The position numbers were made by a program, and so were the translations under genes. 64,000 bases of DNA from Pseudochrobactrum sp. sp1633 (GTDB taxonomy: Bacteria > Pseudomonadota > Alphaproteobacteria > Rhizobiales > Rhizobiaceae), in the NCBI RefSeq assembly GCF_030376605.1, contig NZ_JARRAE010000005.1:1-64000 (forward strand), in the 5' to 3' direction. This document shows positions 14,634-38,668 of this stretch, one piece after another (position 1 is the first letter of the stretch; each line of letters begins with the position of its first letter). Below the pieces are notes generated by a model, which was not told the origin of the DNA, did not search any database, and was given only the letters and a program-made list of their open reading frames with translations.

Positions 14634-14920
14634 AATGAAAATTCCTCAACTGCCGTCGAATACGATACGGCAGACTCCCTCTTATTTTATGCAATTAGCA
14701 TAGCTGGTTGCAGGTCGTTTTCCAGTCCTATTTCATAGATTTCCGCTAAATTTCAAAAACTTTACTGCACAGAAACCGCGCTATAATTGTGATGGCGAAA
14801 CGGACATTTCATATTATCATTTTAAGCGATCAGCGGAATTTATTGTCACAGACAGTTTCACCTGACCGCGAAATGTTTTAGCTTCATCTCCATATGTTTT
14901 CAGTCAGTTCAGGAGCAGTT

Positions 14921-17560
14921 ATGCGTACCGATACAGGTCATGTCTTTCGCCTCGAAGATTACCGTCCGTCAGACTATCTGATACGCAAAACAGAACTGGA
15001 TTTTCAGCTTGATCCGGAAAAGACAATAGTCACCGCCCGCCTCACAATAGAGCGGCGCGAAGGTGCTTCACCGTCGGTGCCATTGGTGCTGGATGGCGAT
15101 GAGCTGAAACTGGTGAGTCTCAACATCAACGGAGCAACTGTTACGGATTATGTGGCGACACCTGAGCTACTCACCATCCGTTCACTGCCGCAAGACACGG
15201 TCTTCGTGCTTGATATTGTTACGGAAGTTAACCCGACAACGAACCGGCAGCTGATGGGGCTGTACCGTTCAAGCAATATCTATACGACCCAATGTGAGGC
15301 CGAGGGTTTTCGCCGTATCACCTATTTTCTTGACCGGCCGGATGTTCTCTCCGTTTACACCGTCCGCCTTGAGGTCGACAAACTTTCTGCACCGATCCTG
15401 CTTTCCAACGGTAATCTTCAAGACAGCGGTGATCTTGAGAATGGCCGCCATTATGCTCTGTGGCATGACCCGCATCCCAAGCCATCTTATCTCTTTGCGC
15501 TGGTCGCCGGTGATCTCGGCTCGATCAGTGACCGGTTCACCACACGCTCGGGCAGAGAGGTCGCGCTGAATATCTATGTCGAACATGGCAATGAGGCTCG
15601 CGCAACCTATGCGATGGATGCACTGAAACGCTCGATGCTCTGGGATGAAGAGGTCTATGGCCGCGAATATGATCTCGACATATTCAACATCGTTGCCGTG
15701 TCAGACTTCAATATGGGGGCGATGGAAAATAAAGGCCTGAACATCTTTAATGATAAATATGTTCTTGCCGATCCGCAGACCGCTACCGATACGGATTATG
15801 CCGGTATTGAAGCGGTCATTGCCCATGAATATTTCCACAACTGGACCGGCAACCGCATTACCTGCCGCGATTGGTTTCAGCTTTGCCTGAAAGAAGGCCT
15901 GACCGTTTATCGTGACCATGAGTTTTCCAGCGACATGCGCTCCCGTGCCGTGCATCGCATTGATGAGGTGAAAATTCTTAAAGCACAGCAATTTCCGGAA
16001 GACGGCGGCCCGCTTGCGCATCCTGTACGCCCGAAAGAATATCGCGAGATCAATAATTTCTACACGGCAACAGTCTATGAAAAAGGCAGCGAAGTCATTC
16101 GTATGCTGCGCACGATTATCGGCGACGAGAAGTTCTACAAAGGGCTGGATCTCTATTTCACCCGCCATGACGGCGATGCTGCAACGATTGAAGATTTTCT
16201 CAAAGTGTTTGAAGACGTGACAGAGCAATCTCTGGCACAATTTGCATTGTGGTATGATCAGGCGGGCACGCCACGCATCACTGTCAGTTCTGACTATGAT
16301 GCAAAAAGCCGGAGCCTGCGGCTGACGCTGGAGCAGAAGCTGGAACCAACGCCCGGCCAAAGCCACAAGCAGCCAATGCATATTCCGCTCAAATTCGCAC
16401 TGATCGGTGCAGATGGTCAGGATATCATCATCAGCGCTCATGATGGCGCCGGATTACAAGGTGATGTGCTACACCTGCGCGAAGCTTCGCAAAGCTGGAC
16501 ATTCTACAATATTGACGAAAAGCCTGTTCTGTCTCTGCTACGGGATTTTTCTGCTCCGGTGTACCTTGATCAGAAACTGAGCCGCGAGGAGCAGTTGTTT
16601 CTTGCACGTCATGACAGTGATGCCTTTGGCCGCTGGCAGGCGATCCATCATCTGATGAGCACGGCCATCATGGCCAATGTTGAAAATCTGCGCAAACAAA
16701 CACAAACAAAGTTTGATCCGGCTCTCGCAGAACTGCTGGCCGAGGTTGTGCAGGATGAGACATTGGATCATGCCTTCCGTGCTTTGTGCCTCAGCCTGCC
16801 GGATGAAGCAGATATTGCGCGCGAACTCGGCGATGATATTGACCCTGACCTTATCCGCAGCAGCAGAGAAGCCTTGCTTGCGGCCATTGCGAAACACAAT
16901 GCGCCGCTTTTCGCAAAATCCTATGATGCCCAGCAGGATGATGGTGCTTTCTCACCCGATGCAGCAAGTGCCGGTAAGCGCGCACTGAAAGCTGTGCTCC
17001 TGACTTACCTCGCCGTTTCTGATGAAGCTCCGGCACAGGTCTACGCTCAGTTCAGCCAGGCCGATAATATGACGGACAAACTCGCAGCACTGACCTTGCT
17101 GGTGCACCGCTTCTATGGTCATGACAATGCGACGCAAGCTTTGGCACAGTTTGAAAAAGACTACGGCAATGTACCGCTGGCAATGGACAAGTGGTTTGGT
17201 GTGCAGGCACGCCGCCCTGCTCCGGACACACTGGAAGCTGTGCAAAAACTGATGCTGCATCCGCTCTTCTCGCTCGACAATCCGAACCGCTGCCGCGCCT
17301 TGCTCGGCACTTTTGCAGCAAGCAATCCAACGGGCTTCAACCGGCAGGATGGCCGTACCTATGCATTTTTCACCAGTCTGATCCTGCAGATTGACCGTGA
17401 AAACCCGCAACTGGCCGCGCGCCTGCTGACCAGCCTGCGTTCATGGAAAACACTGGAACCGGTGCGACGGGAGCATCTTAAAACGGCATTGGAGACAATC
17501 GCGCAGGCAGAGAACCTCTCCGCAGATGTGCGTGACATTACGGAACGCATGCTGGCCTGA
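14921..17560 (+). CDS. pepN: Aminopeptidase N (M1 family)
   Basis: This cytoplasmic zinc aminopeptidase completes peptide degradation. I choose the ATG at 14921, which follows CAGGAGCAGTT, over the one at 14894; the product is then 879 residues, as usual for the proteobacterial PepN. The exopeptidase motif GAMENKG precedes the zinc site HEYFH at 302-306, with the third ligand Glu325. The C-terminal half is the helical bowl domain of gammaproteobacterial-type PepN. It is monocistronic and followed by the pleC promoter region. Confidence 0.97.
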   Translation: MRTDTGHVFRLEDYRPSDYLIRKTELDFQLDPEKTIVTARLTIERREGASPSVPLVLDGDELKLVSLNINGATVTDYVATPELLTIRSLPQDTVFVLDIVTEVNPTTNRQLMGLYRSSNIYTTQCEAEGFRRITYFLDRPDVLSVYTVRLEVDKLSAPILLSNGNLQDSGDLENGRHYALWHDPHPKPSYLFALVAGDLGSISDRFTTRSGREVALNIYVEHGNEARATYAMDALKRSMLWDEEVYGREYDLDIFNIVAVSDFNMGAMENKGLNIFNDKYVLADPQTATDTDYAGIEAVIAHEYFHNWTGNRITCRDWFQLCLKEGLTVYRDHEFSSDMRSRAVHRIDEVKILKAQQFPEDGGPLAHPVRPKEYREINNFYTATVYEKGSEVIRMLRTIIGDEKFYKGLDLYFTRHDGDAATIEDFLKVFEDVTEQSLAQFALWYDQAGTPRITVSSDYDAKSRSLRLTLEQKLEPTPGQSHKQPMHIPLKFALIGADGQDIIISAHDGAGLQGDVLHLREASQSWTFYNIDEKPVLSLLRDFSAPVYLDQKLSREEQLFLARHDSDAFGRWQAIHHLMSTAIMANVENLRKQTQTKFDPALAELLAEVVQDETLDHAFRALCLSLPDEADIARELGDDIDPDLIRSSREALLAAIAKHNAPLFAKSYDAQQDDGAFSPDAASAGKRALKAVLLTYLAVSDEAPAQVYAQFSQADNMTDKLAALTLLVHRFYGHDNATQALAQFEKDYGNVPLAMDKWFGVQARRPAPDTLEAVQKLMLHPLFSLDNPNRCRALLGTFAASNPTGFNRQDGRTYAFFTSLILQIDRENPQLAARLLTSLRSWKTLEPVRREHLKTALETIAQAENLSADVRDITERMLA

Positions 17561-17623: not shown

Positions 17624-17659
17624 CAGACATGATTTTGAATCAAATCAGAATCATGTCTG
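17624..17659. terminator. Hairpin after pepN, possible terminator
   Basis: The inverted repeat CAGACATGATT (17624-17634) pairs with 17649-17659 around a 14-nt loop. No clean T-run follows. The loop and right arm also contain the first GAATC pair of the cluster upstream of pleC, so a regulatory role is equally possible. Confidence 0.35.
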
Positions 17660-17803
17660 CCGATCTTAAATCTTATTCTTTTAAAAACTGATCGAATCAC
17701 CCTCGAATCGGAACAGGTTTTTTATTAATTATTAATGAAAAACACTGGACACAGCGAATCACATTTGATTCATTAGGGTTATTCGGATTTTTCATACCGA
17801 ATC
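17637..17803. promoter_or_regulatory. Cluster of seven GANTC sites upstream of pleC
   Basis: GAATC/GATTC begins at 17637, 17648, 17694, 17705, 17756, 17767 and 17799. Six of the seven form three pairs with exactly 11-bp spacing. GANTC is the CcrM methylation site in alphaproteobacteria, and cell-cycle promoters read its methylation through GcrA. An 11-bp direct repeat is also the period of OmpR-family operators. The cluster ends 35 bp before the kinase start. Confidence 0.6.
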
Positions 17804-17837: not shown

Positions 17838-20216
17838 ATGGCAAATACCGACGCGTACCGCGCGCCGAATGGTGCCCGTTACACCTCAGAAAGACGCCCG
17901 AAGCGCTTCAAGCTTTCCGGTTACGTCTATCTGTTGTCTGGTCCTGCCTATCGCAAGCTCCTGTCGCTTGAGCCGGTTCTGCGCCGCATTGTGCCGGTAC
18001 TGATCATCGCTTTCCTGATTATTCTGGCCGGTGCGCGCATGCTGTCGCTGCTCAGCCAGCGTGACGAGATTGAAGGTGATGCGCGTCATGAACTCGCTCT
18101 CACTGCTGCTCATGTGGCTGCAAAATTGCAAAGCCAGCTTGAAATCACACCTCTTGCCGATAGCAATGATGATTACAGTGCCGTTCAAAATCTGCTTGTG
18201 GATTTGCGTTCGCAAGGGCTGATCAGCGGCAATGTCGAGCTCGCAATTCTTGACGAAAGTTCAAAGATTATTGCGGCTCTGAGTTCACGCCAGTTGCTAG
18301 GCATTCAGGCCGAAACCTTGCTTTCCGAAGCACAGCCGCTGCTGATGTTTGGCGCGCGTGCCGGTGTATTGCCTGTCAAATACCGCAATGAGGCGGGCTT
18401 TGCCGCTTTGGAAAAAGTTGAACCGCAAAATATTCAGGCAGCCGCCGCCGGTGCTTTTTCCGTTCTGACATTCAACACTGAAAAAGCTATTTTTAAAGAT
18501 TGGCGTCAGGTCGTCTCGCTGAACATCACCCTGTTCGCCGCAACTGCCGGTGTGCTGCTGGCTATCCTCTACGCCTACTTCAGTCAGGCCGCCCGTGCAC
18601 GCGATGCGGACGACTTTTCCCACCAGATACAAAAGCGTATTGATCTGGCGCTTGCCCGTGGTCGTTGCGGCCTCTGGGATTGGGACATGGCGCGCGGACG
18701 TATGTACTGGTCGCGCTCGATGTATGAAATGCTCGGCTATGAATCCGTAGACAGCGTGTTGTCCTTTGGTGATGTGGCAGCGATTGTTAATCCGGTTGAC
18801 GGCGATCTTTATGAAATCGCAACGCAGGTTATGTCCGGCGAATTGCGTCAGGTCGATAAAGTGCTGCGTATGCGCCATGCAGACGGCTACTGGGTGTGGA
18901 TGCGGGTGCGCGCGGAAATTGCCAATGAAGGTGATGTGCATCTGGTCGGTATTGCATTTGACGTCAGCGAACAGCACCGCTTTGCACAGGCAACAGTGGA
19001 AGCCGACTTGCGTATCCGTGAAGCGATTGAAAGCATTTCCGAGGCTTTCGTTCTCTGGGATGCCGAGAGCCGTCTGGTGATGTCCAACGGCAAATATAAT
19101 GAATATGCAGGCCTGCCTGCCACAGCCCTGAAAGCCGGCGTAACCCGCGAAGATATTCAGCCGCTGCTACGCCCTGCCGCCTTTGAGCGCCGCATGGCCA
19201 ATGAAAACGACCGCAGTGGTGCGCAAACTTTTGAACGCCAGCTTGGTGACGGCCGCTGGTTGCAGGTCAACGAACGCCGCACACAGGACGGCGGTCTGGT
19301 TTCGGTTGGCACTGACATTACCCAGCTCAAGCTGCATCAGGAACGTCTGGTGGATAGCGAACGCCGTCTGATGGCGACCATTCAAGATCTGAGCCTTGCC
19401 CGTAAAGCGGAAAAAGACCGTGTGCGCGAGCTGTCAGAGCTGGCCTCCAAATATGCGACAGAAAAGGAACGTGCGGAAAGCGCGAACCGTGCCAAGTCAG
19501 AATTTCTTGCCAATATGTCCCATGAATTGCGCACACCGCTCAATGCGATTATCGGTTTCTCCGAAATGATCTCGGCAGGTACGTTTGGCCCGCTCGGCTC
19601 TGACCGTTACGCAGAATACATTCACGACATTCATACCAGCGGCAATTATCTGCTCAATGTTATCAATGACATTCTCGATATGTCGAAGATTGAGGCCGGT
19701 CATTTCTCACTGGATCGCGAAGAGATTGATCTTTATCCGTTGATTGAAGAAACCGTGCGCGTGGTTTCCCTGCAGGCTGAGCAGAAACATATTACGGTTG
19801 AAACCAGTATTGCCGATACGATAACCGCCAGCGCTGACCGCCGTGCGATCAAGCAGGTGCTGATCAATCTCCTGTCCAATGCGGTGAAGTTCACCGGTGA
19901 CGGTGGCCGCATTCTAGTACGCGCCCGCAAAACCAACGGTGCACTGATCCTCACCATTAAAGATACCGGCTGCGGTATTCCGCGCGATGCGCTCAAGAAG
20001 CTCGGCCATCCGTTTGAACAGGTGGAAAACCAGTTCACCAAGACCCATACGGGTTCAGGTCTCGGCCTTGCTATTTCCCGCTCATTGGCTGAGCTGCATA
20101 ATGGTGCCCTGCGCATCTGCTCAACCGAAGGTGTGGGCACAATTGTCTCTGTGCGCATTCCGGATCGCGTTGTGCCTGCCGGTACAAACCAGATCAGCAA
20201 TGATGTTGCAGCCTAA
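17838..20216 (+). CDS. pleC: PleC-like sensor histidine kinase
   Basis: The 792-residue inner-membrane kinase has two membrane helices (about 48-70 and 227-250) flanking a periplasmic loop. Two PAS domains follow (about 268-380 and 390-495), then a short coiled coil (about 500-550), HisKA with phospho-acceptor His562 in SHELRTPLNAIIGFSE, and an ATPase domain with N-box NLLSNAVKFT, DTGCGI and GSGLGLAIS. This HisKA wording is typical of the PleC/DivJ/PdhS group that acts on DivK. Its place next to glnE, near degP and ccm, matches the S. meliloti pleC locus as I recall it. PleC works mainly as a DivK phosphatase at the new pole. The ortholog name is likely but not proven. Confidence 0.8.
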   Translation: MANTDAYRAPNGARYTSERRPKRFKLSGYVYLLSGPAYRKLLSLEPVLRRIVPVLIIAFLIILAGARMLSLLSQRDEIEGDARHELALTAAHVAAKLQSQLEITPLADSNDDYSAVQNLLVDLRSQGLISGNVELAILDESSKIIAALSSRQLLGIQAETLLSEAQPLLMFGARAGVLPVKYRNEAGFAALEKVEPQNIQAAAAGAFSVLTFNTEKAIFKDWRQVVSLNITLFAATAGVLLAILYAYFSQAARARDADDFSHQIQKRIDLALARGRCGLWDWDMARGRMYWSRSMYEMLGYESVDSVLSFGDVAAIVNPVDGDLYEIATQVMSGELRQVDKVLRMRHADGYWVWMRVRAEIANEGDVHLVGIAFDVSEQHRFAQATVEADLRIREAIESISEAFVLWDAESRLVMSNGKYNEYAGLPATALKAGVTREDIQPLLRPAAFERRMANENDRSGAQTFERQLGDGRWLQVNERRTQDGGLVSVGTDITQLKLHQERLVDSERRLMATIQDLSLARKAEKDRVRELSELASKYATEKERAESANRAKSEFLANMSHELRTPLNAIIGFSEMISAGTFGPLGSDRYAEYIHDIHTSGNYLLNVINDILDMSKIEAGHFSLDREEIDLYPLIEETVRVVSLQAEQKHITVETSIADTITASADRRAIKQVLINLLSNAVKFTGDGGRILVRARKTNGALILTIKDTGCGIPRDALKKLGHPFEQVENQFTKTHTGSGLGLAISRSLAELHNGALRICSTEGVGTIVSVRIPDRVVPAGTNQISNDVAA

Positions 20217-20218
20217 GT

Positions 20219-23149
20219 TCACCCCTTTAATAGTTGTTTGAACGCCTTGGCGACAGCTTCTGTGGTCTGATCCAGCTGATGCTCGACATGGGCAATATCC
20301 GGCAATTCAGCAGCGCGGCACAGCAATTCCAGCAAGCCCGGCAGGTAATCCTCCCGCCCTGTATTATCATCCACGCACAGACGGATAATTTGCGTGAGAT
20401 TGCTATAGAAATGATGAGCCGTGGCCAGTTCTTCGGCCAGTGCAGGACTGGAAAAATCCGGTTTCAGATGACGCAGGTTTAGCTCTGTGGAAGTGTGACG
20501 GATATCTGTCGCCACCTGCCCTGTCAGCACGGCAAACTGGGCAATAAACTCCAGATCGATCAAACCGCCGGAACGCAGCTTCAAATCCCAGGCATCACGC
20601 GGCGGCTTTTCACTAGCAATCAGCGTGCGCATATCGGTCATTTCCTTCGCCGTTTTTTTCACCTCTGAAGGAATGGTGAGAATAGCGTCCACTTCTACAT
20701 CAATCTCATCACAGAATGAGTGGTCACCGGCAATCGCGCGGGCGCGGGTCAGCGCCATATGCTCCCATATCCAGGCATCATTGCGCTGATATTTACCGAA
20801 AGCTTCAATATGGGTTGCGACCGGCCCCTTATTGCCGCTTGGGCGCAGGCGCATATCCACTTCATAGAGCACACCCTCGGCCATAGGTGCGGACAGCGCC
20901 GCGATCAGACGCTGTGTCAGGCGGATATAATATTGCGATGCGGCAAGTTGCTTCTCGCCGTCCGAATAATCGGCATCTGCGTCGTGATCATAGAGCAGGA
21001 TAATATCGACATCGGAACCGGCAGTGAGTTCACGGCTACCCAGTTTACCCATGGCCAGAACTGCAATGCGACCACCGGCAATCCGGCCGTGGCGTATCGT
21101 GAACTCTTTCATCACCGCGCTCAATGCACGATCGATCATCAGTTCAGCAAGATCAGAAAAAGCCCTGCCCGCACGCACACCGTCAATCGCGCCGGTCAGC
21201 AAGCGGATACCAATCAGAAAACGCTGCTCGGCAGCAAAAATACGCAAACGGTCGAGTGTTTCTTCATATGGTTCATCATGGGTGAGGAATGTATCGAGCC
21301 GCTCTTCGAGATAGCTGCGCGTTGGCAATTCGGAGAAGATGCGCGGATCGAGCATACCGTCAAAAACATGCGGCTTACGGGTAATGATTTCAGCCAGACG
21401 CGGTGCCGCGCTCATCACCAAAACCAGCAGATTGAGCAGTGCCGGATTGGACTGCAACAGGCTGAAAAGCTGAATACCGGATGGCAGACCTTGCAAAAAG
21501 CCGTCAAAACGCAGCAGTGCATCATCTGCGCGCTCGGTTGCCGCAAAGGCATTCAGCAAAGCCGGTGTCAGTTCCGTTAAGCGTTCACGCGCTTCTGCCG
21601 TTTGCGTTGCGCGGTAACGGCCGAAATGCCATGTGCGGATGATACGACAAATATCGCTCGGGCGCTCAAAGCCAAGTTGCGAAAGGGTTTGTAGCGTATC
21701 AGGATCATCCGTCTCACCGGTAAAGACAAGATTGCCGCCACTGCTGCCAAGTTCCGGCGCCTGTTCAAACAATGCCGCATAGTGCTTTTCAACAGTACGC
21801 AACACAGCCAAAAATTCCGCTGTGAAACTTTCATTATCCGGATAGCCCATCATCGAAGCGATGCGGCTGAAACCCTCATCATCCTCCGGCAGAATATGCG
21901 TCTGTTCATCAGCAACCATTTGGATGCGGTGTTCAACATTGCGCAGAAACTGATAATTGCGGCTCAGCTGATCGCAGGCATTTTCACCCACCCAGCCACG
22001 CTCATAGAGCTTGGTCAGCATAACCAGTGTTTGTGAGCCACGCAATTCAGGAAAACGTCCGCCTGCAATCAGCTGCTGTGTCTGTACGAAAAACTCGATC
22101 TCACGGATGCCACCGCGCCCGAGTTTCACATTATGCCCACGCACTGCAATATCACCGTGGCCGCGATGGGCATGGATTTGACGTTTGATCGAGTGAATAT
22201 CGGCAATCGCCGCATAGTCGAGATATTTGCGCCAGACATAGGGCGCGAGTTCTTTGATGAACTGCTCTCCCGAAGCGATATCACCGGCGACTGGACGTGC
22301 TTTAATCATCGCCGCGCGTTCCCAGTTCTGGCCGCGCCCCTCGTAATAATGCAGTGCTGCGCTCACCGGAATAGCCAGCGGGGTTGCACCCGGATCAGGG
22401 CGCAGACGCAAGTCCACGCGGAAGACATAGCCGTCCGCCGTTCTGTCCTGCAAAATCTTGACCAGCCGCCGCGCCATGCGTGAGAACAGATCAACACATT
22501 CATAGGGATCGGTAATTGCCGGACGGGCGCTGTCGATAAAAATAATCAGATCAATATCGGAAGAGTAATTCAGCTCTCTTGCGCCGAACTTACCCATACC
22601 GAGCACAATCAGCCCGCTATCTTTTTCAGGATCGTTACGATCCGGCAAAGCCAATTTGCCTTTTGCATCGCTTTCAAGAAGCAGAAATTGTACGGCAGCG
22701 CGCAGGCTGGCCTCTGCAAGATCACTCAGCCGATTGGTAGTTTGCATCACATCGGCAAAGCCTGCCAGATCATCCAGTGCAATCAGCACATGAGCGGTTT
22801 TCTTGAGGCGGCGCAGTTCCGCCATCAACCGGTTTTCCGTCATTTCCGGGTCAGTACCCAGAGCAGAAATCTGCTCCAATGCCTTTGCCAGCAATGCATC
22901 GAGCGGTGCTGTAAACAGGCTTTCCAGAATTTCAGGACAGGTTTCTGTCACTTCCCTCAGGAAGGATGAGCAATCGAGTATGGCTGCTAAAAATCCGGTT
23001 TCATCTGCGGTTTCAAGATAGCGGCTCAGAGCGCTGCATCCGCGCTCTGCCGCCGCTCCTGTTAAATTTTGCAGGTAAATCTTTGCCTGTTGCGGGTTCG
23101 GAACTGTCAGAGATTTCAGCGAACTATCAAAAAACAAAACACCGGTCAT
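20219..23149 (-). CDS. glnE: Bifunctional glutamine synthetase adenylyltransferase/adenylyl-removing enzyme
   Basis: GlnE adenylylates glutamine synthetase when nitrogen is plentiful and removes the AMP when it is scarce, under PII control. Both nucleotidyltransferase halves are present: GKFGARELNYSSDIDLI in the first half (deadenylylase) and GKLGSRELTAGSDVDII in the second. Each shows the G-x-LGxRE...S-D-D/V-D signature. I prefer the ATG at 23149 (MTGVLFFDSS, 976 residues), which has GGGGTGG upstream; an in-frame ATG at 23173 is the alternative. The gene starts 6-30 bp after the upstream kinase, so it is in that operon, and it converges with pleC with only 2 bp between stops. Confidence 0.96.
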   Translation of the reverse strand: MTGVLFFDSSLKSLTVPNPQQAKIYLQNLTGAAAERGCSALSRYLETADETGFLAAILDCSSFLREVTETCPEILESLFTAPLDALLAKALEQISALGTDPEMTENRLMAELRRLKKTAHVLIALDDLAGFADVMQTTNRLSDLAEASLRAAVQFLLLESDAKGKLALPDRNDPEKDSGLIVLGMGKFGARELNYSSDIDLIIFIDSARPAITDPYECVDLFSRMARRLVKILQDRTADGYVFRVDLRLRPDPGATPLAIPVSAALHYYEGRGQNWERAAMIKARPVAGDIASGEQFIKELAPYVWRKYLDYAAIADIHSIKRQIHAHRGHGDIAVRGHNVKLGRGGIREIEFFVQTQQLIAGGRFPELRGSQTLVMLTKLYERGWVGENACDQLSRNYQFLRNVEHRIQMVADEQTHILPEDDEGFSRIASMMGYPDNESFTAEFLAVLRTVEKHYAALFEQAPELGSSGGNLVFTGETDDPDTLQTLSQLGFERPSDICRIIRTWHFGRYRATQTAEARERLTELTPALLNAFAATERADDALLRFDGFLQGLPSGIQLFSLLQSNPALLNLLVLVMSAAPRLAEIITRKPHVFDGMLDPRIFSELPTRSYLEERLDTFLTHDEPYEETLDRLRIFAAEQRFLIGIRLLTGAIDGVRAGRAFSDLAELMIDRALSAVMKEFTIRHGRIAGGRIAVLAMGKLGSRELTAGSDVDIILLYDHDADADYSDGEKQLAASQYYIRLTQRLIAALSAPMAEGVLYEVDMRLRPSGNKGPVATHIEAFGKYQRNDAWIWEHMALTRARAIAGDHSFCDEIDVEVDAILTIPSEVKKTAKEMTDMRTLIASEKPPRDAWDLKLRSGGLIDLEFIAQFAVLTGQVATDIRHTSTELNLRHLKPDFSSPALAEELATAHHFYSNLTQIIRLCVDDNTGREDYLPGLLELLCRAAELPDIAHVEHQLDQTTEAVAKAFKQLLKG

Positions 23150-23179
23150 GCTGCAATTCCACCCCAGATTCATACCTGA

Positions 23180-34858: not shown

Positions 34859-37800
34859 TCAATAACGGAATGACAGTGTGGCTGCAGCACCTGCACCATA
34901 AGCCTGACTGACTTGTGCGACTTCAATACGCAATAAGTCGCCGCTTGATACCTGTCCGGTATAAATGAAACGTGGCTGCATCACTTCCGATTTCAGCAAC
35001 AGCGTCTCATCATTCCAGAGCTGTATCTGATATTTTTCAGTGGCCTCTCCCAGCGGAATATCTTCCCCCATCCAGTTATCTGCATCGATACGCCCGCGTC
35101 TTACCCACTCAAACACGATCTCTGCATTATTCTGCCGTTGATAACGCAGATGTACCGGACTTAAAGGTTGCAGTGCTCTCACCCCGCCAACAGAAGATTG
35201 TGTGCTGAAATATGCATCTGAAAACTCCTGCCCTGCTGATCCTGCACGCCAGTTCAGTAGTAATTCGGCATCCGACTCTTGCAGACCGGCCGGCACAACC
35301 CTGTCATCCAGCAAAACAAATGCAGCGCCGGTTTGCTTTTCGAAACGTGCGGATTCTTCTGTACCGCACTGTCCGCGCAGCAGAGTTTTTAGCCTCCAGT
35401 GCCCAGCAGAAACTTCCTCTGCCTGCAAAAATTGCAGAATCTCCCAACTTCCCTGTGCATTTTGCACCAAAGCTGTATTCGCGGCATTCAGCACCTGCCG
35501 GAGTGTCTGAGTCTGCAGTTCACCATGATAGAGACGCACGTCGAAACTCTGCTGATGCATGAGACGACCACTGGCAGCCGCTTTGAGGCCGGTTGCCAAT
35601 TCTCCCATAACAGCGGCATGGGGTACCATCGTTCGCAACTGATAATCACTGTCCTCCGGCGAACTATAGAGCGCCACTTCACGCCAAGGCTTTGCATAAC
35701 AAGCAATACGAAACTGATTATTCTGGTTTTCAACACCGGGCCACATTGGCAAATCCAGCAAATGAAACACTGGCGGCCCCGCTACATTGCTACCATCTGA
35801 GCGGGGAAGCTCCGGCATACGCGTGCGATCAGGACGACGTAGAACCGGAGCCAGCGCCACGGCTTTAACACGACGGGCAACACCATCCTCAAGGCTGACA
35901 ATTGTATAATCCCGCGTGCCTGTCACTTGCGGAAGCCGCACTCTGTCCCCCACAGTTAAGTGCACCTGTGACCACGGCAAAGAAAATGAGACTGTGCGCC
36001 GTTCCGCCCGTTTTCGCTCTAACCAGCTCTCAGCCAGCCCTCGCGCCTGCCCGTTTTCCATCGCAGCAGGCAAAGACAGGCTCTCATGCCCTGCCCTTTG
36101 CCAACCGGATTTTTGTGCCAAAGCACTGCCTGACTGATAGTCCCGCAAGGCATCGCTAAAGTAGAGCTCCGCACTGGCAGGCAGTTCTTCCGCATCCTCC
36201 AGCGTGAGTACCGGCTGGTCTTCAGCTTTTTCCTGTACAGTTTCAGACAGGAGTATCGGGTTTTGCCGCTGCGACAGACTACGAAAAACCAACCTTTGCT
36301 GAGTAGCCTCCCGCTCTGTCACCTGTTCAAAGGCGGCAACACCGAAAACATCCATCAGCGGCTCAAGCAGCGCTCTGCCGCTGACCGGACTGTCAGCAAT
36401 ATAACCGGATAAATAACCTTCAACACCACGGCAATCGGCCAGTCCGGCAAGATCAAAATCTTTAAAAAGCGCCTCAAACAGTTCATCCAGCGCCACCCCG
36501 CTCAACCGCCCGTTCAGCCAATGACCGGTCGCCCAATTCGCAGCATCTCCCCAGATATCTGCTTTCAGCGGATATTCCGGAAATGGCCGCGTATCCCATG
36601 CCCAGACATAGATCTGCTCAGGATCAAGCATCTGCGCGCCATAAACAGGGGAAACGGGATTGTGGCTGCCGGTTTTGCGCCAATAGGAGAAATGCGCCCG
36701 CAAAAAACGATCCTGCGCAATATCGCAGCGTGATCCGTCTGAAAAATAAGGCGAAGCATTTTCAGACGATTTCGGATCGGGAAACACATTAGGTTGGTTG
36801 GAGCCTTTATCAACAGCCGCACAACCAAGTTCGGTCAGCCAAAAAGGCTTGGACATCGGCTGCCATGCGGTCGGCTCGGTCAGTTCAACACCACCAACGC
36901 GATTATAATGCCGGTTCTGCCACCATGAGCACAAGTCTTTATAACGATAGACCCAAGGCTTACCCGCCAGCCCGTCCGTTATGTCACTACGCTTGCGCTG
37001 CTGCCGGTCTTCCGCAGAAGCATAATACCAGTCATAGCCCTCCCCGCCGGCAATAGCGCTTTGCAAAGCAACTTCATCATATGCAGAGACAGGAAGAGCA
37101 GGATCAATGCTGCGCTCATCACCATCACGCCAATCGCTTAGCGGCATATAATTATCAATACCGACAGAGCTAACAGCCGGATGTGCCCAGAGCGGATCAA
37201 GATGAAAAAAGACATCGCCGCTGCCATCCTGCGGGTGATAGCCAAAATACTCTGACCAGTCTGCGCCATAAGTAATTTTGCACTGCGTGCCCAACAGGTT
37301 GCGTGCCTCAGTTGCCAGATCACAGAGGCAATTCACAAAAGGAAAGCCATTTTGCGCATTGCGGCTATGGGTCAGACCACGTAACTCAGAGCCGATTAAA
37401 AAGGCATCCACGCCACCGGCACTGCCTGCAAGTTCAAGATAATGCCGGATAAAGCGCTTATAGCCCCAAGTTCCGCTTATAAAACGGGAAAGCTGTATAT
37501 CAGCTTCCGGCGTTTTATCCTGATCCAATGGCAGAGCTATTCTGCCACGCCACGGATAAGGCGGTTGAAAACCATTACCATCTAAGGCAGGCAGGGTGTT
37601 GTTTGCCGGTATATCCATCATGATAAACGGATAAAGCGTCACTTGCAGACCACGCTGTTTAGCATCTCTGATTGCATCAATCACTGAGAAATCGCTCGGT
37701 GTACCACCATAGGCTTTCTCAAAGTTATTATCTGAAATCAGGTGCGCGTCCATACGACCCACAGTGCCAACACGCCACTCACGGCTGGGGTTGCGTGCCT

Positions 37801-38668
37801 GTACAGCAGTGACGCCGGGTACAATCCGGCACTCTCCTGCACGTAAATCCGTACCAAACCACGGCACAACCAGCGCCACAGTTTTCAGGTTCGGGCAAAG
37901 CGCCTGCAACTCATCCAGTGATGCACTCCAGTCGCTTTGCGCGCGCAGATTGTTCCGGTTCAGAGCCCGAGTTTCACCAGGCTGCGGCTCATCGCGGATC
38001 GCCTGCGGTGACAGGCCGAATTCCGTTGCACCGGGAATAAGCGCCACAGCGCGGATATCACGCGCAAGCCTGCCCACACTGCGCATGACTTCGAACTGCA
38101 ACAAGGGCAGCCGGTTACCATAGGCATCAACCGGCAACCGCTCGAGCACTACATAGGCTGTGCCGCGATAGGCGGGGGCTTTGCCCGCACCTTGCCGCGC
38201 CTCAATCAAAGGATCAGGCTGCTGTTCTTCCGTGCCTTTACAAACACGGATCGTGACTTGTGTCTGGTCAAGCTCCTTACCATCGGCCCAGATGCGGCGT
38301 ATGCCGGAGATTTCCCCTTGCGAAACAGCAAAGGCCGCATTCGCATAATAGCTGTAAGTGGTTGTTTTCGGCCCGCCTTTACTACCCTGACGGGTCGTGA
38401 TCTTTTCTTCTTCAAAGCGTGTTGCCCAGATCAGGGTGCCGCCCACACGCATCGTGCCGTAGATAGCAGGCAAGGCAGCCCCTTCCTCCGCCTGCATCGG
38501 CCGCGTGCCGGACAAACGCGGCCCTTCAATACGCCGCGTTGAGTTGATCAGCGCATTGTCGATCATATAACCGCCCATTGCACCGATTGCGCTGCCAATC
38601 GCCGTGCCGACAGGGCCGAACAGGCTGCCTATCATGCCGCCCGCTGCCTGAAGAACCATTGTCGCCAT
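34859..38668 (-). CDS. GTA tail tip protein ('megatron'), g15-like
   Basis: The 1269-residue protein is the last gene of the GTA structural cluster. It is the baseplate/tail tip protein that contacts the recipient envelope (lambda gpJ-like position). The N-terminal hydrophobic Gly-rich segment (about 8-40) precedes the baseplate domain. A TIM-barrel glycoside-hydrolase-like domain spans about 270-600 (VDAFLIGSELRGLTHSR, DYAAIADIH-type features absent, but ITYGADWSEYFGYHP present). Phage tail domains follow. Length and domain order match RcGTA g15 (rcc01698). It starts 37 bp after the g14 stop. No frameshift is seen. Confidence 0.93.
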   Translation of the reverse strand: MATMVLQAAGGMIGSLFGPVGTAIGSAIGAMGGYMIDNALINSTRRIEGPRLSGTRPMQAEEGAALPAIYGTMRVGGTLIWATRFEEEKITTRQGSKGGPKTTTYSYYANAAFAVSQGEISGIRRIWADGKELDQTQVTIRVCKGTEEQQPDPLIEARQGAGKAPAYRGTAYVVLERLPVDAYGNRLPLLQFEVMRSVGRLARDIRAVALIPGATEFGLSPQAIRDEPQPGETRALNRNNLRAQSDWSASLDELQALCPNLKTVALVVPWFGTDLRAGECRIVPGVTAVQARNPSREWRVGTVGRMDAHLISDNNFEKAYGGTPSDFSVIDAIRDAKQRGLQVTLYPFIMMDIPANNTLPALDGNGFQPPYPWRGRIALPLDQDKTPEADIQLSRFISGTWGYKRFIRHYLELAGSAGGVDAFLIGSELRGLTHSRNAQNGFPFVNCLCDLATEARNLLGTQCKITYGADWSEYFGYHPQDGSGDVFFHLDPLWAHPAVSSVGIDNYMPLSDWRDGDERSIDPALPVSAYDEVALQSAIAGGEGYDWYYASAEDRQQRKRSDITDGLAGKPWVYRYKDLCSWWQNRHYNRVGGVELTEPTAWQPMSKPFWLTELGCAAVDKGSNQPNVFPDPKSSENASPYFSDGSRCDIAQDRFLRAHFSYWRKTGSHNPVSPVYGAQMLDPEQIYVWAWDTRPFPEYPLKADIWGDAANWATGHWLNGRLSGVALDELFEALFKDFDLAGLADCRGVEGYLSGYIADSPVSGRALLEPLMDVFGVAAFEQVTEREATQQRLVFRSLSQRQNPILLSETVQEKAEDQPVLTLEDAEELPASAELYFSDALRDYQSGSALAQKSGWQRAGHESLSLPAAMENGQARGLAESWLERKRAERRTVSFSLPWSQVHLTVGDRVRLPQVTGTRDYTIVSLEDGVARRVKAVALAPVLRRPDRTRMPELPRSDGSNVAGPPVFHLLDLPMWPGVENQNNQFRIACYAKPWREVALYSSPEDSDYQLRTMVPHAAVMGELATGLKAAASGRLMHQQSFDVRLYHGELQTQTLRQVLNAANTALVQNAQGSWEILQFLQAEEVSAGHWRLKTLLRGQCGTEESARFEKQTGAAFVLLDDRVVPAGLQESDAELLLNWRAGSAGQEFSDAYFSTQSSVGGVRALQPLSPVHLRYQRQNNAEIVFEWVRRGRIDADNWMGEDIPLGEATEKYQIQLWNDETLLLKSEVMQPRFIYTGQVSSGDLLRIEVAQVSQAYGAGAAATLSFRY

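Follow-up and report, generated by a model that had tools for sequence, protein, structure and literature searches.

Gene order and the GANTC cluster at the pleC locus

The window (the whole 64,000-nucleotide stretch of Pseudochrobactrum sp. sp1633 DNA analyzed here) carries a gene for a PleC-type histidine kinase (hereafter, pleC), with pepN as its upstream neighbor in the same direction and glnE as its convergent downstream neighbor, a gene order that we take to be the same as in S. meliloti. The features of this region are as follows (positions are those of the window).

14894–17560, plus strand: pepN, aminopeptidase N (TIGR02414, 1239 bits vs. a cut-off of 718; M1 peptidase Pfam domains)
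17637–17652: GANTC pair 1 (GAATC at 17637 and GAATC at 17648), in Pseudochrobactrum-like genomes only
17694–17709: GANTC pair 2 (GAATC at 17694 and GAATC at 17705), in Pseudochrobactrum-like genomes only
17721–17735, plus strand: CtrA-like box TTTA-N7-TTAA (7/8 motif bases), ending 10 bp before TGGACA
17746–17751, plus strand: predicted −35 element TGGACA (92–100% conserved per column in 106 non-redundant rows)
17756–17760: core GANTC site 1, GAATC (TGATTCG on the other strand), at a predicted position of about −25
17767–17771: core GANTC site 2, GATTC, at a predicted position of about −15, abutting or overlapping the −10 element
17769–17774, plus strand: probable weak −10 element TTCATT, placed by its distance from the −35 element (17-bp spacer)
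17780–17784: remnant of core GANTC site 3, TATTC (GATTC in most relatives), near the predicted +1
17781–17802, plus strand: inverted repeat ATTCGG-N10-CCGAAT, near the predicted transcript start
17799–17803: lone GANTC site, GAATC, in the 3′ arm of the inverted repeat
17838–20216, plus strand: pleC, PleC-type histidine kinase of 792 aa (two PAS, HisKA, and HATPase_c domains)
20219–23173, minus strand: glnE (PRK14108, 1542 bits vs. a cut-off of 724)

Among the matches listed for the kinase (25 of 82), no NCBIfam model scored above its own cut-off. The protein has 80 close relatives with 55–95% identity over most of its length (the best 80 of 433) and is 93–95% identical to its closest Pseudochrobactrum relatives. 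It was matched in all 121 genomes of the family (weakly in G006 and G081) and in all 111 genomes of the order, 19 of them only at E-values of 5e-75 to 5e-54. The kinase is reported to be essential in S. meliloti (PMC4254191). The 80 pleC loci compared below, the best 80 of 433 with record titles, come from Pseudochrobactrum, Paenochrobactrum, Brucella/Ochrobactrum, Falsochrobactrum, Phyllobacterium, Mesorhizobium, Aminobacter, and others. Six sequences are called Pseudochrobactrum-like: the window and L001–L005, with L002 and L005 assigned by similarity and not by title. The record of L005 (JAHREI010000009.1) is titled Bacillus subtilis and bears a Pseudochrobactrum-like pleC locus, and must be mislabelled or contaminated.

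Seven GANTC sites (starting at 17637, 17648, 17694, 17705, 17756, 17767, and 17799) all lie inside the 277-bp intergenic gap between pepN and pleC. An earlier note on this sequence had located all seven correctly; it had also reported GAATCA at the first member of each pair and at the lone site, as the sequence reads, and three pairs with a spacing of 11 bp, which is the sole spacing of ≤50 bp that is repeated and occurs three times. The pair consensus that it proposed, GAATCA-N5-GAATC, describes two of the three pairs; in the third, the second member is GATTC. Its background rate of one GANTC per 256 bp understated the case: the window has about one per 970 bp (66 sites in total vs. 222.5 expected from dinucleotide shuffles), which makes the cluster stand out even more than the note had supposed. 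No other 167-bp stretch of the window contains more than three sites.

In 20,000 draws from a first-order Markov model of this AT-rich intergenic gap itself, at least seven sites appeared 0.19% of the time, and three 11-bp pairs never did. When seven sites are placed randomly in 167 bp, the probability of three pairs at exactly 11 bp is ~0.0009, and that of three pairs at any one spacing ≤22 bp is ~0.017. Among the 80 pleC genes, GANTC occurs once per 68 bp in the 330 bp upstream, compared to once per 1078 bp inside pleC and once per 1192 bp at −2000 to −500. The next densest stretch of the window (35274–35513, four GANTC in 240 bp) falls within a long ORF (34859–38668, minus strand).

A GANTC pair inside the predicted core promoter

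Judged by sequence, TGGACA is a good candidate −35 element and TTCATT a poor −10 element, the counterpart of which reads TCAAAT in many loci of other families. We infer that sites 1 and 2 lie at about −25 and −15, with a third site near +1. All 80 related pleC loci have two GANTC sites exactly 11 bp apart as the counterpart of 17756/17767, the first of them 73–155 bp before the start codon. Conservation of the pairs in relatives, which the earlier note had put forward as a check, was borne out for the core pair (80/80 loci, with a spacing of mostly 10 bp in other families); pairs 1 and 2 were restricted to Pseudochrobactrum-like genomes.

In a comparison of 106 rows with <85% identity, anchored on the pair, TGGACA stands four bases ahead of site 1 and is followed by GAATC, TGATTC, and TT; the anchored columns are invariant by construction, and TGGACA lies outside the anchor. 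When 190 loci (including near-duplicates) were anchored on −35-like matches, with the best match chosen in the five loci that have several, both GANTC sites were exactly placed in 160 loci, one in 23, and neither in two, and five loci had no match. Anchoring on the CT[GA]GACA nearest the gene, which makes no choice by GANTC, gave both sites in 155 of the 190 loci, one in 21, none in two, and no match in 12. In shuffled upstream regions, a GANTC site behind a −35-like match was found in 0 of 950. GANTC sites are therefore kept in orthologues within what is predicted from sequence to be the core promoter.

Conservation of the array across families

A PleC tree (FastTree) was built for 132 genomes, comprising 106 of the family and 26 from 13 other families of the order, the latter being the best-matching loci among 107 other-family genomes. 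At least one GANTC is kept at the pleC promoter in 130 of the 132 genomes. The promoter could be anchored in 128, using a score that itself counts GANTC (the two −35-based anchorings of the 190 loci serve as checks). None of these 128 is without a GANTC in the spacer of the −35/−10 region, at least two of the three sites being present in 126 and all three in 92. Among the four unanchored promoters, one has site 2 behind GTGGACA and one has sites 2 and 3 with no recognizable −35 element. The remaining two, L290 and L292 (G183 and G218, of one genus), have no array within 1500 bp upstream of the pleC-like match. A joint loss of the array and GcrA found no support: GcrA is present in 15/15 genomes tested, including both array-less ones.

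Two or three sites stand behind the −35 element in 24 of the 26 other-family loci, across 13 families. Seventeen of the 26 have three sites in the usual places, two have site 1 displaced, five have only site 2 and the third site, and two have none. Their usual form is CTGGACA-N4-GATTC-N5-GATTCAAAT-N6-GATTCGG, in which sites 1 and 2 are 10 bp apart, not 11, and sites 1 and 3 are 25 bp apart. The 10-bp spacing is seen in 14 of the 19 other-family loci with both sites. In the whole set, the spacing between sites 1 and 2 ranges from 9 to 14 bp (11 in 81/109 promoters, 10 in 20/109), and that between sites 1 and 3 is 25 bp in 79 of the 101 promoters having both. A spacing of exactly 11 bp as a functional rule was rejected on the ground that other families mostly have 10 bp. 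The motif TGGACA-N4-GAATC-N5-TGATTC occurs once each in 12 of 13 sampled family genomes (seven of the 13 from one genus) and in none of 284 genomes of other families, which indicates from sequence that the array is older than its 11-bp form and that this form is particular to the family. Joint loss of sites 1 and 2 was never seen (0/128), which is not significant, as independent loss predicts about 0.7 cases. Beyond the order, one (L301) of the six class-level loci examined, out of 29, has CTGGACA and a GANTC near the site-2 distance.

Signs of selection on the GANTC sites

Site 1 is present in 118 of the 128 anchored promoters; GA and TC are kept in all of these, and the base between them varies (82 A, 28 T, 5 G, and 3 C). 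On the tree, a minimum of 18 changes is required when GAATC, GATTC, other N, and lost are scored as separate states, compared to six when only presence and loss are scored. Site 2 is always GATTC where present (119/119), and site 3 is present in 109/128 promoters. The extended GcrA motif YGAKTCK, taken as quoted in PMC8725594, which cites the original, is matched on one strand by 91 of the 118 copies of site 1 (70 minus, 21 plus), 77/109 copies of site 3, and 27/119 copies of site 2. GAATC copies of site 1 read YGAKTCK on the minus strand in 70 of 82 cases and GATTC copies on the plus strand in 18 of 28, the flanks thus mostly turning with the core.

Identity to the window was compared between three kinds of positions, listed here for Pseudochrobactrum, Brucella/Ochrobactrum, Phyllobacterium, and the Mesorhizobium group. 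Fourfold sites of pleC give 0.61, 0.45, 0.44, and 0.42; the 42-nt promoter gives 1.00, 0.81, 0.70, and 0.71; and 18 core columns, which were picked for being conserved, give 1.00, 1.00, 0.97, and 0.99. Because the central base of site 1 drifts with GA and TC kept, and because the core promoter is far more conserved than the fourfold sites of pleC, GANTC itself, and not one fixed sequence, seems to be under selection. For site 2, a fixed sequence explains the data equally well, since it matches YGAKTCK in only 27/119 cases and is always GATTC.

CtrA-like box and inverted repeat flanking the core promoter

The CtrA box motif is TTAA-N7-TTAA, and the element at 17721–17735 fits it by sequence, which makes it a predicted CtrA-binding site. 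At least seven of the eight motif bases were found ≤60 bp upstream of the −35 element in 71 of 139 non-redundant relatives, compared to 5.1% of shuffles, and in 29 of those relatives the box has one shared offset, one base from that of the window. CtrA binding at pleC was detected by ChIP-seq in S. meliloti, where pleC expression was reported not to change significantly upon CtrA depletion (PMC4433202), and a CtrA motif lies upstream of the S. meliloti pleC transcription start site (PMC3616915). CtrA is also described as binding upstream of pleC in B. abortus (PMC2877005). The same kind of box is present here as in those CtrA-bound promoters; unlike what is described there, the GANTC array here is a separate element.

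The inverted repeat at 17781–17802 reads GATTCGG/CCGRATC in most relatives. Its seven core pairs are formed in 91.3% of cells, compared to 88.4% when shuffled and at most 51.9% when slid. Cells with a double change number 19 vs. 5.3 in shuffles (0/500 reach 19), and pairs with a double change number 4 vs. 2.8 (126/500 reach 4). By stem length alone, the repeat is no different from shuffles, and RNAalifold predicts no common leader structure in the aligned relatives. Non-Watson-Crick combinations over nine pairs comprise 127 G-U vs. 53 A-C; a hand count over the seven core pairs gives about 103 G-U, 63 of them from one column, vs. 17 A-C. This excess of G-U leans towards an RNA hairpin on the transcript strand; the sequence may form either a leader hairpin or a DNA dyad.

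Genus-specific GANTC pairs upstream

Among the loci examined, counterparts of pairs 1 and 2 were found only in L001–L005 and L082, which is of the same genus; a second 11-bp pair also occurs, at different places, in a few other loci. In the six Pseudochrobactrum-like sequences, the 20-bp block around pair 1 (17636–17655) is invariant in 6/6, compared to 9/36 and 9/31 invariant columns in the flanking stretches, and 24 of the 25 columns at 17687–17711 are invariant around pair 2. The upstream pairs are thus, as far as sequence conservation can tell, not noise within the genus, and both may be extra genus-specific sites. An origin of pair 1 from a dispersed repeat was rejected, its sequence occurring in one place only in the genome.

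Pair 1 lies in a 15-nt inverted repeat (17624–17659) that looks perfect in the window only. Minimum-energy folds predict a hairpin with the loop ATCAAA, centered on pair 1, in all six sequences, and the predicted hairpins of the other five are shorter and bulged, with different 5′ arms; none of the five has an ungapped inverted repeat of at least 8 nt at pair 1. From the sequence, a hairpin behind pepN and an extra genus-specific site are equally open as explanations of pair 1. Another GANTC couple, GAGTC and GATTC 39 bp apart, lies upstream of the core promoter in relatives (L011–L034): it was not seen in L001–L005 and is present in most Brucella/Ochrobactrum, in Falsochrobactrum, and in several Phyllobacterium, at about −213 and −174 from pleC in Ochrobactrum and −183 and −144 in Phyllobacterium.

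CcrM and GcrA in this genome and in published systems

The genome encodes GcrA (PF07750, 206.6 bits over the whole model; N-terminus MNWTDERVELLKKLW), together with a second, divergent GcrA-domain protein (74.8 bits; C2:132412–132915, L193); PF07750 also matches two of the 14 controls, including an archaeon. A CcrM of 383 aa, a methyltransferase with a RAMA domain (PF18755) and a DPPY motif, is encoded on the same contig. Both proteins that a GcrA/CcrM-controlled promoter would need are therefore encoded.

In Caulobacter, pleC is listed among 80 loci at which efficient binding of GcrA depends on CcrM (PMC3667746), and GANTC between the −10 and −35 elements is reported to mark promoters activated at 40–60 min (PMC4287350). 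GcrA is described as binding sigma2 and speeding open-complex formation at methylated promoters (PMC7403470). The placement of GANTC at pleC here is like that in this 40–60 min class (PMC4287350) and in Caulobacter GcrA/CcrM promoters such as ftsZ (PMC3708114). In contrast, 11 of 96 Caulobacter cell-cycle transcription start sites with an upstream GANTC are reported to have more than one (PMC4287350), whereas the predicted core promoter of Rhizobiales pleC keeps two or three GANTC sites in phase in several families of the order; GcrA binding at pleC has been observed in Caulobacter and is predicted here from sequence.

Alphaproteobacterial cell-cycle genes, pleC among them, were reported to have on average 0.4 to 1.5 GANTC per 500-bp promoter region, with the statement that methylation control cannot be derived from GANTC counts (PMC2877005). 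The text of that survey, unlike the present analysis, does not give the position, phasing, or conservation of single sites, and a count for pleC may stand in its supplement. Cell-cycle-regulated promoters of Ensifer are reported to show no GANTC enrichment (PMC8725594). In Agrobacterium, the gcrA promoter has six GANTC in 250 bp and is described as less active when methylated, even in E. coli, which, as the authors note, is without the alphaproteobacterial regulators (PMC11514494). Like the pleC array, the gcrA and repABC promoters of Agrobacterium have several intergenic GANTC sites in a CcrM-encoding member of the Rhizobiales, and single sites matter for their activity; unlike it, they belong to other genes, and no phased core-promoter array is described for them in the text of that study (PMC11514494). 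The gcrA upstream region of the Pseudochrobactrum genome also differs from its Agrobacterium counterpart, having no GANTC in 430 nt (L192, ending 30 nt into gcrA).

The main texts of this Agrobacterium CcrM paper (PMC11514494) and of the B. abortus GcrA ChIP-seq paper do not mention pleC. Among the matches listed from open-licence literature, no title or abstract opening refers to a GANTC array at Rhizobiales pleC. Since GcrA/CcrM promoters and the GcrA-bound pleC of Caulobacter are already known, the array would be a further example of a known promoter type, with an unusually rigid multi-site layout in Rhizobiales pleC.

Interpretation of the pleC promoter

We consider it probable, from the sequence evidence, that GcrA reads the pleC core promoter, which lies behind a CtrA-like box, through its methylation by CcrM. 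The stretch 17721–17803 would be a core promoter built on methylatable GANTC sites, in which RNA polymerase would use the −35 element TGGACA and a poor −10 element, and two GANTC sites about one helical turn apart would lie at roughly −25 and −15 with a third near +1; in the window, the third would have been lost, with the lone site at 17799 remaining as its former partner arm. CcrM would methylate these sites, and GcrA, by contacting sigma70 domain 2 and preferring YGATTCG-like methylated sites, would open the weak promoter. The output of pleC would then depend on how far the sites are methylated, as determined by the passing replication fork, and the CtrA-like box directly upstream would provide a second cell-cycle input. 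The sequence shows the sites, their conservation, the signs of selection on GANTC, and the presence of both genes; that the sites are methylated and bound by GcrA is inferred, as are the position of the transcription start site and the direction and timing of any effect. Control by CcrM and GcrA was one of two explanations offered by the earlier note; it draws support from the conservation of the core pair inside the −35/−10 region, the free central base of site 1, the orientation changes from lineage to lineage, the fit of most copies of sites 1 and 3 to YGAKTCK, and the presence of gcrA and ccrM, and it sits less well with site 2, which is mostly outside YGAKTCK and has an invariant central base. 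The two loci without an array, L290 and L292, also count against it, because they lack the sites although both genomes keep GcrA. The reported rewiring of GcrA regulons (PMC7987155), the missing GANTC enrichment in Ensifer (PMC8725594), the verdict on GANTC counts in PMC2877005, and the silence on pleC in the main texts of the Agrobacterium and B. abortus papers weigh in the same direction. Its strength is independent of the pair 1 hairpin, since it rests on the core pair.

An effect of CcrM methylation directly on RNA polymerase (e.g., on DNA opening or sigma contacts at −10), possibly repressive and with GcrA not being the reader, would suit the position of site 2 against the probable −10 element and the lowered activity of the methylated Agrobacterium gcrA promoter even in E. 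coli (PMC11514494). We regard it as unlikely, because the flanks of site 1 mostly follow YGAKTCK on the strand that the core faces, and because pleC of Caulobacter is reported as a CcrM-dependent GcrA-bound locus (PMC3667746). It is quite unlikely that methylation is irrelevant and that GATTC merely happens to occur in a block conserved as an ordinary core promoter or as some other protein's operator: TGGACA, the T ahead of site 2, and the TT after it are conserved as well as the GANTC letters, and the invariant site 2 fits such a view, but the center of site 1 runs through all four bases with GA and TC kept, its orientation flips, mostly along with the flanks, and GANTC is avoided across the window at large.

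Some of the sites might owe their presence to RNA hairpins, one following pepN (pair 1) and one in the 5′ leader (the lone site and site 3). This idea has in its favor the 15-nt inverted repeat and the loop predicted in all six sequences at pair 1, and the conserved arms with some compensatory changes at site 3 and the lone site. We find it very improbable, given that an ungapped repeat is missing from the other five sequences, that the 20-bp block with the 3′ arm shows no variation although the 5′ arm does, a difference that calls for more than a hairpin, that 17756/17767 and pair 2 lie outside any such hairpin, and that RNAalifold finds no common leader structure. Operators of OmpR-family response regulators consist of fixed half-sites in direct repeat at a fixed spacing, usually upstream of the −35 element. 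The second explanation of the earlier note, that the pairs are such direct-repeat operators, finds no support at the core pair and is, in our view, scarcely credible. The 11-bp spacing speaks for it, as does the binding of CtrA, itself of the OmpR family, upstream of pleC in S. meliloti (PMC4433202) and B. abortus (PMC2877005), but the core pair is located in the spacer of the predicted promoter, the orientation and central base of site 1 vary, the spacing runs from 9 to 14 bp, GAATC/GATTC at 11 bp becomes mostly GATTC/GATTC at 10 bp between families, and either member can be lost alone. The CtrA-like box is a separate element. This argument covers the core pair; pairs 1 and 2 are true GAATC direct repeats.

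The surprise is how deeply the array is conserved, given that GcrA regulons have been described as heavily rewired from one close relative to the next (PMC7987155). It is also surprising in view of the reported essentiality of CcrM in Rhizobiales, to which the explanation via ftsZ and mipZ in Caulobacter was judged inapplicable, as those promoters rarely hold GANTC there (PMC3708114). A GANTC array kept in place in one promoter, in the family and 13 further families sampled, is a testable candidate for a conserved target. More speculatively, and with considerable doubt on our part, the pleC promoter might be an ancestral CcrM/GcrA target across much of the order, the counterpart of Caulobacter ftsZ, at which methylation at about −25, −15, and +1 would license PleC synthesis once per cycle, and failure of PleC would be part of the reason why CcrM and GcrA are essential. 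On that view, the helical-turn distance between two of the sites could let a GcrA dimer sit on a single DNA face. If control of pleC by methylation is true, a loop would be closed from replication through methylation, PleC, and DivK to CtrA. The steps from PleC, a DivK phosphatase, through DivK to CtrA are established for Caulobacter.

Occurrence of the layout elsewhere in the genome

In the Pseudochrobactrum genome, GAATCANNNNNGATTC occurs once, GAATCN6GATTC in two places, GAATCANNNNNGAATC in three places (two of them inside the window), and TRGACANNNNGANTC in two places, namely pleC and one other. A regulon sharing the exact 11-bp inverted pair was rejected on these counts of one to three places. 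The second place with TGGACA-N4-GAATC is C34:108971–108985 on the minus strand (L195, about 1481–1515), where three GANTC sites fall within 24 bp. The nearest ORFs (≥120 aa) presumably encode a small YbaN-like and an RlpA-like protein, and by its sequence the place is possibly another promoter of the pleC type.
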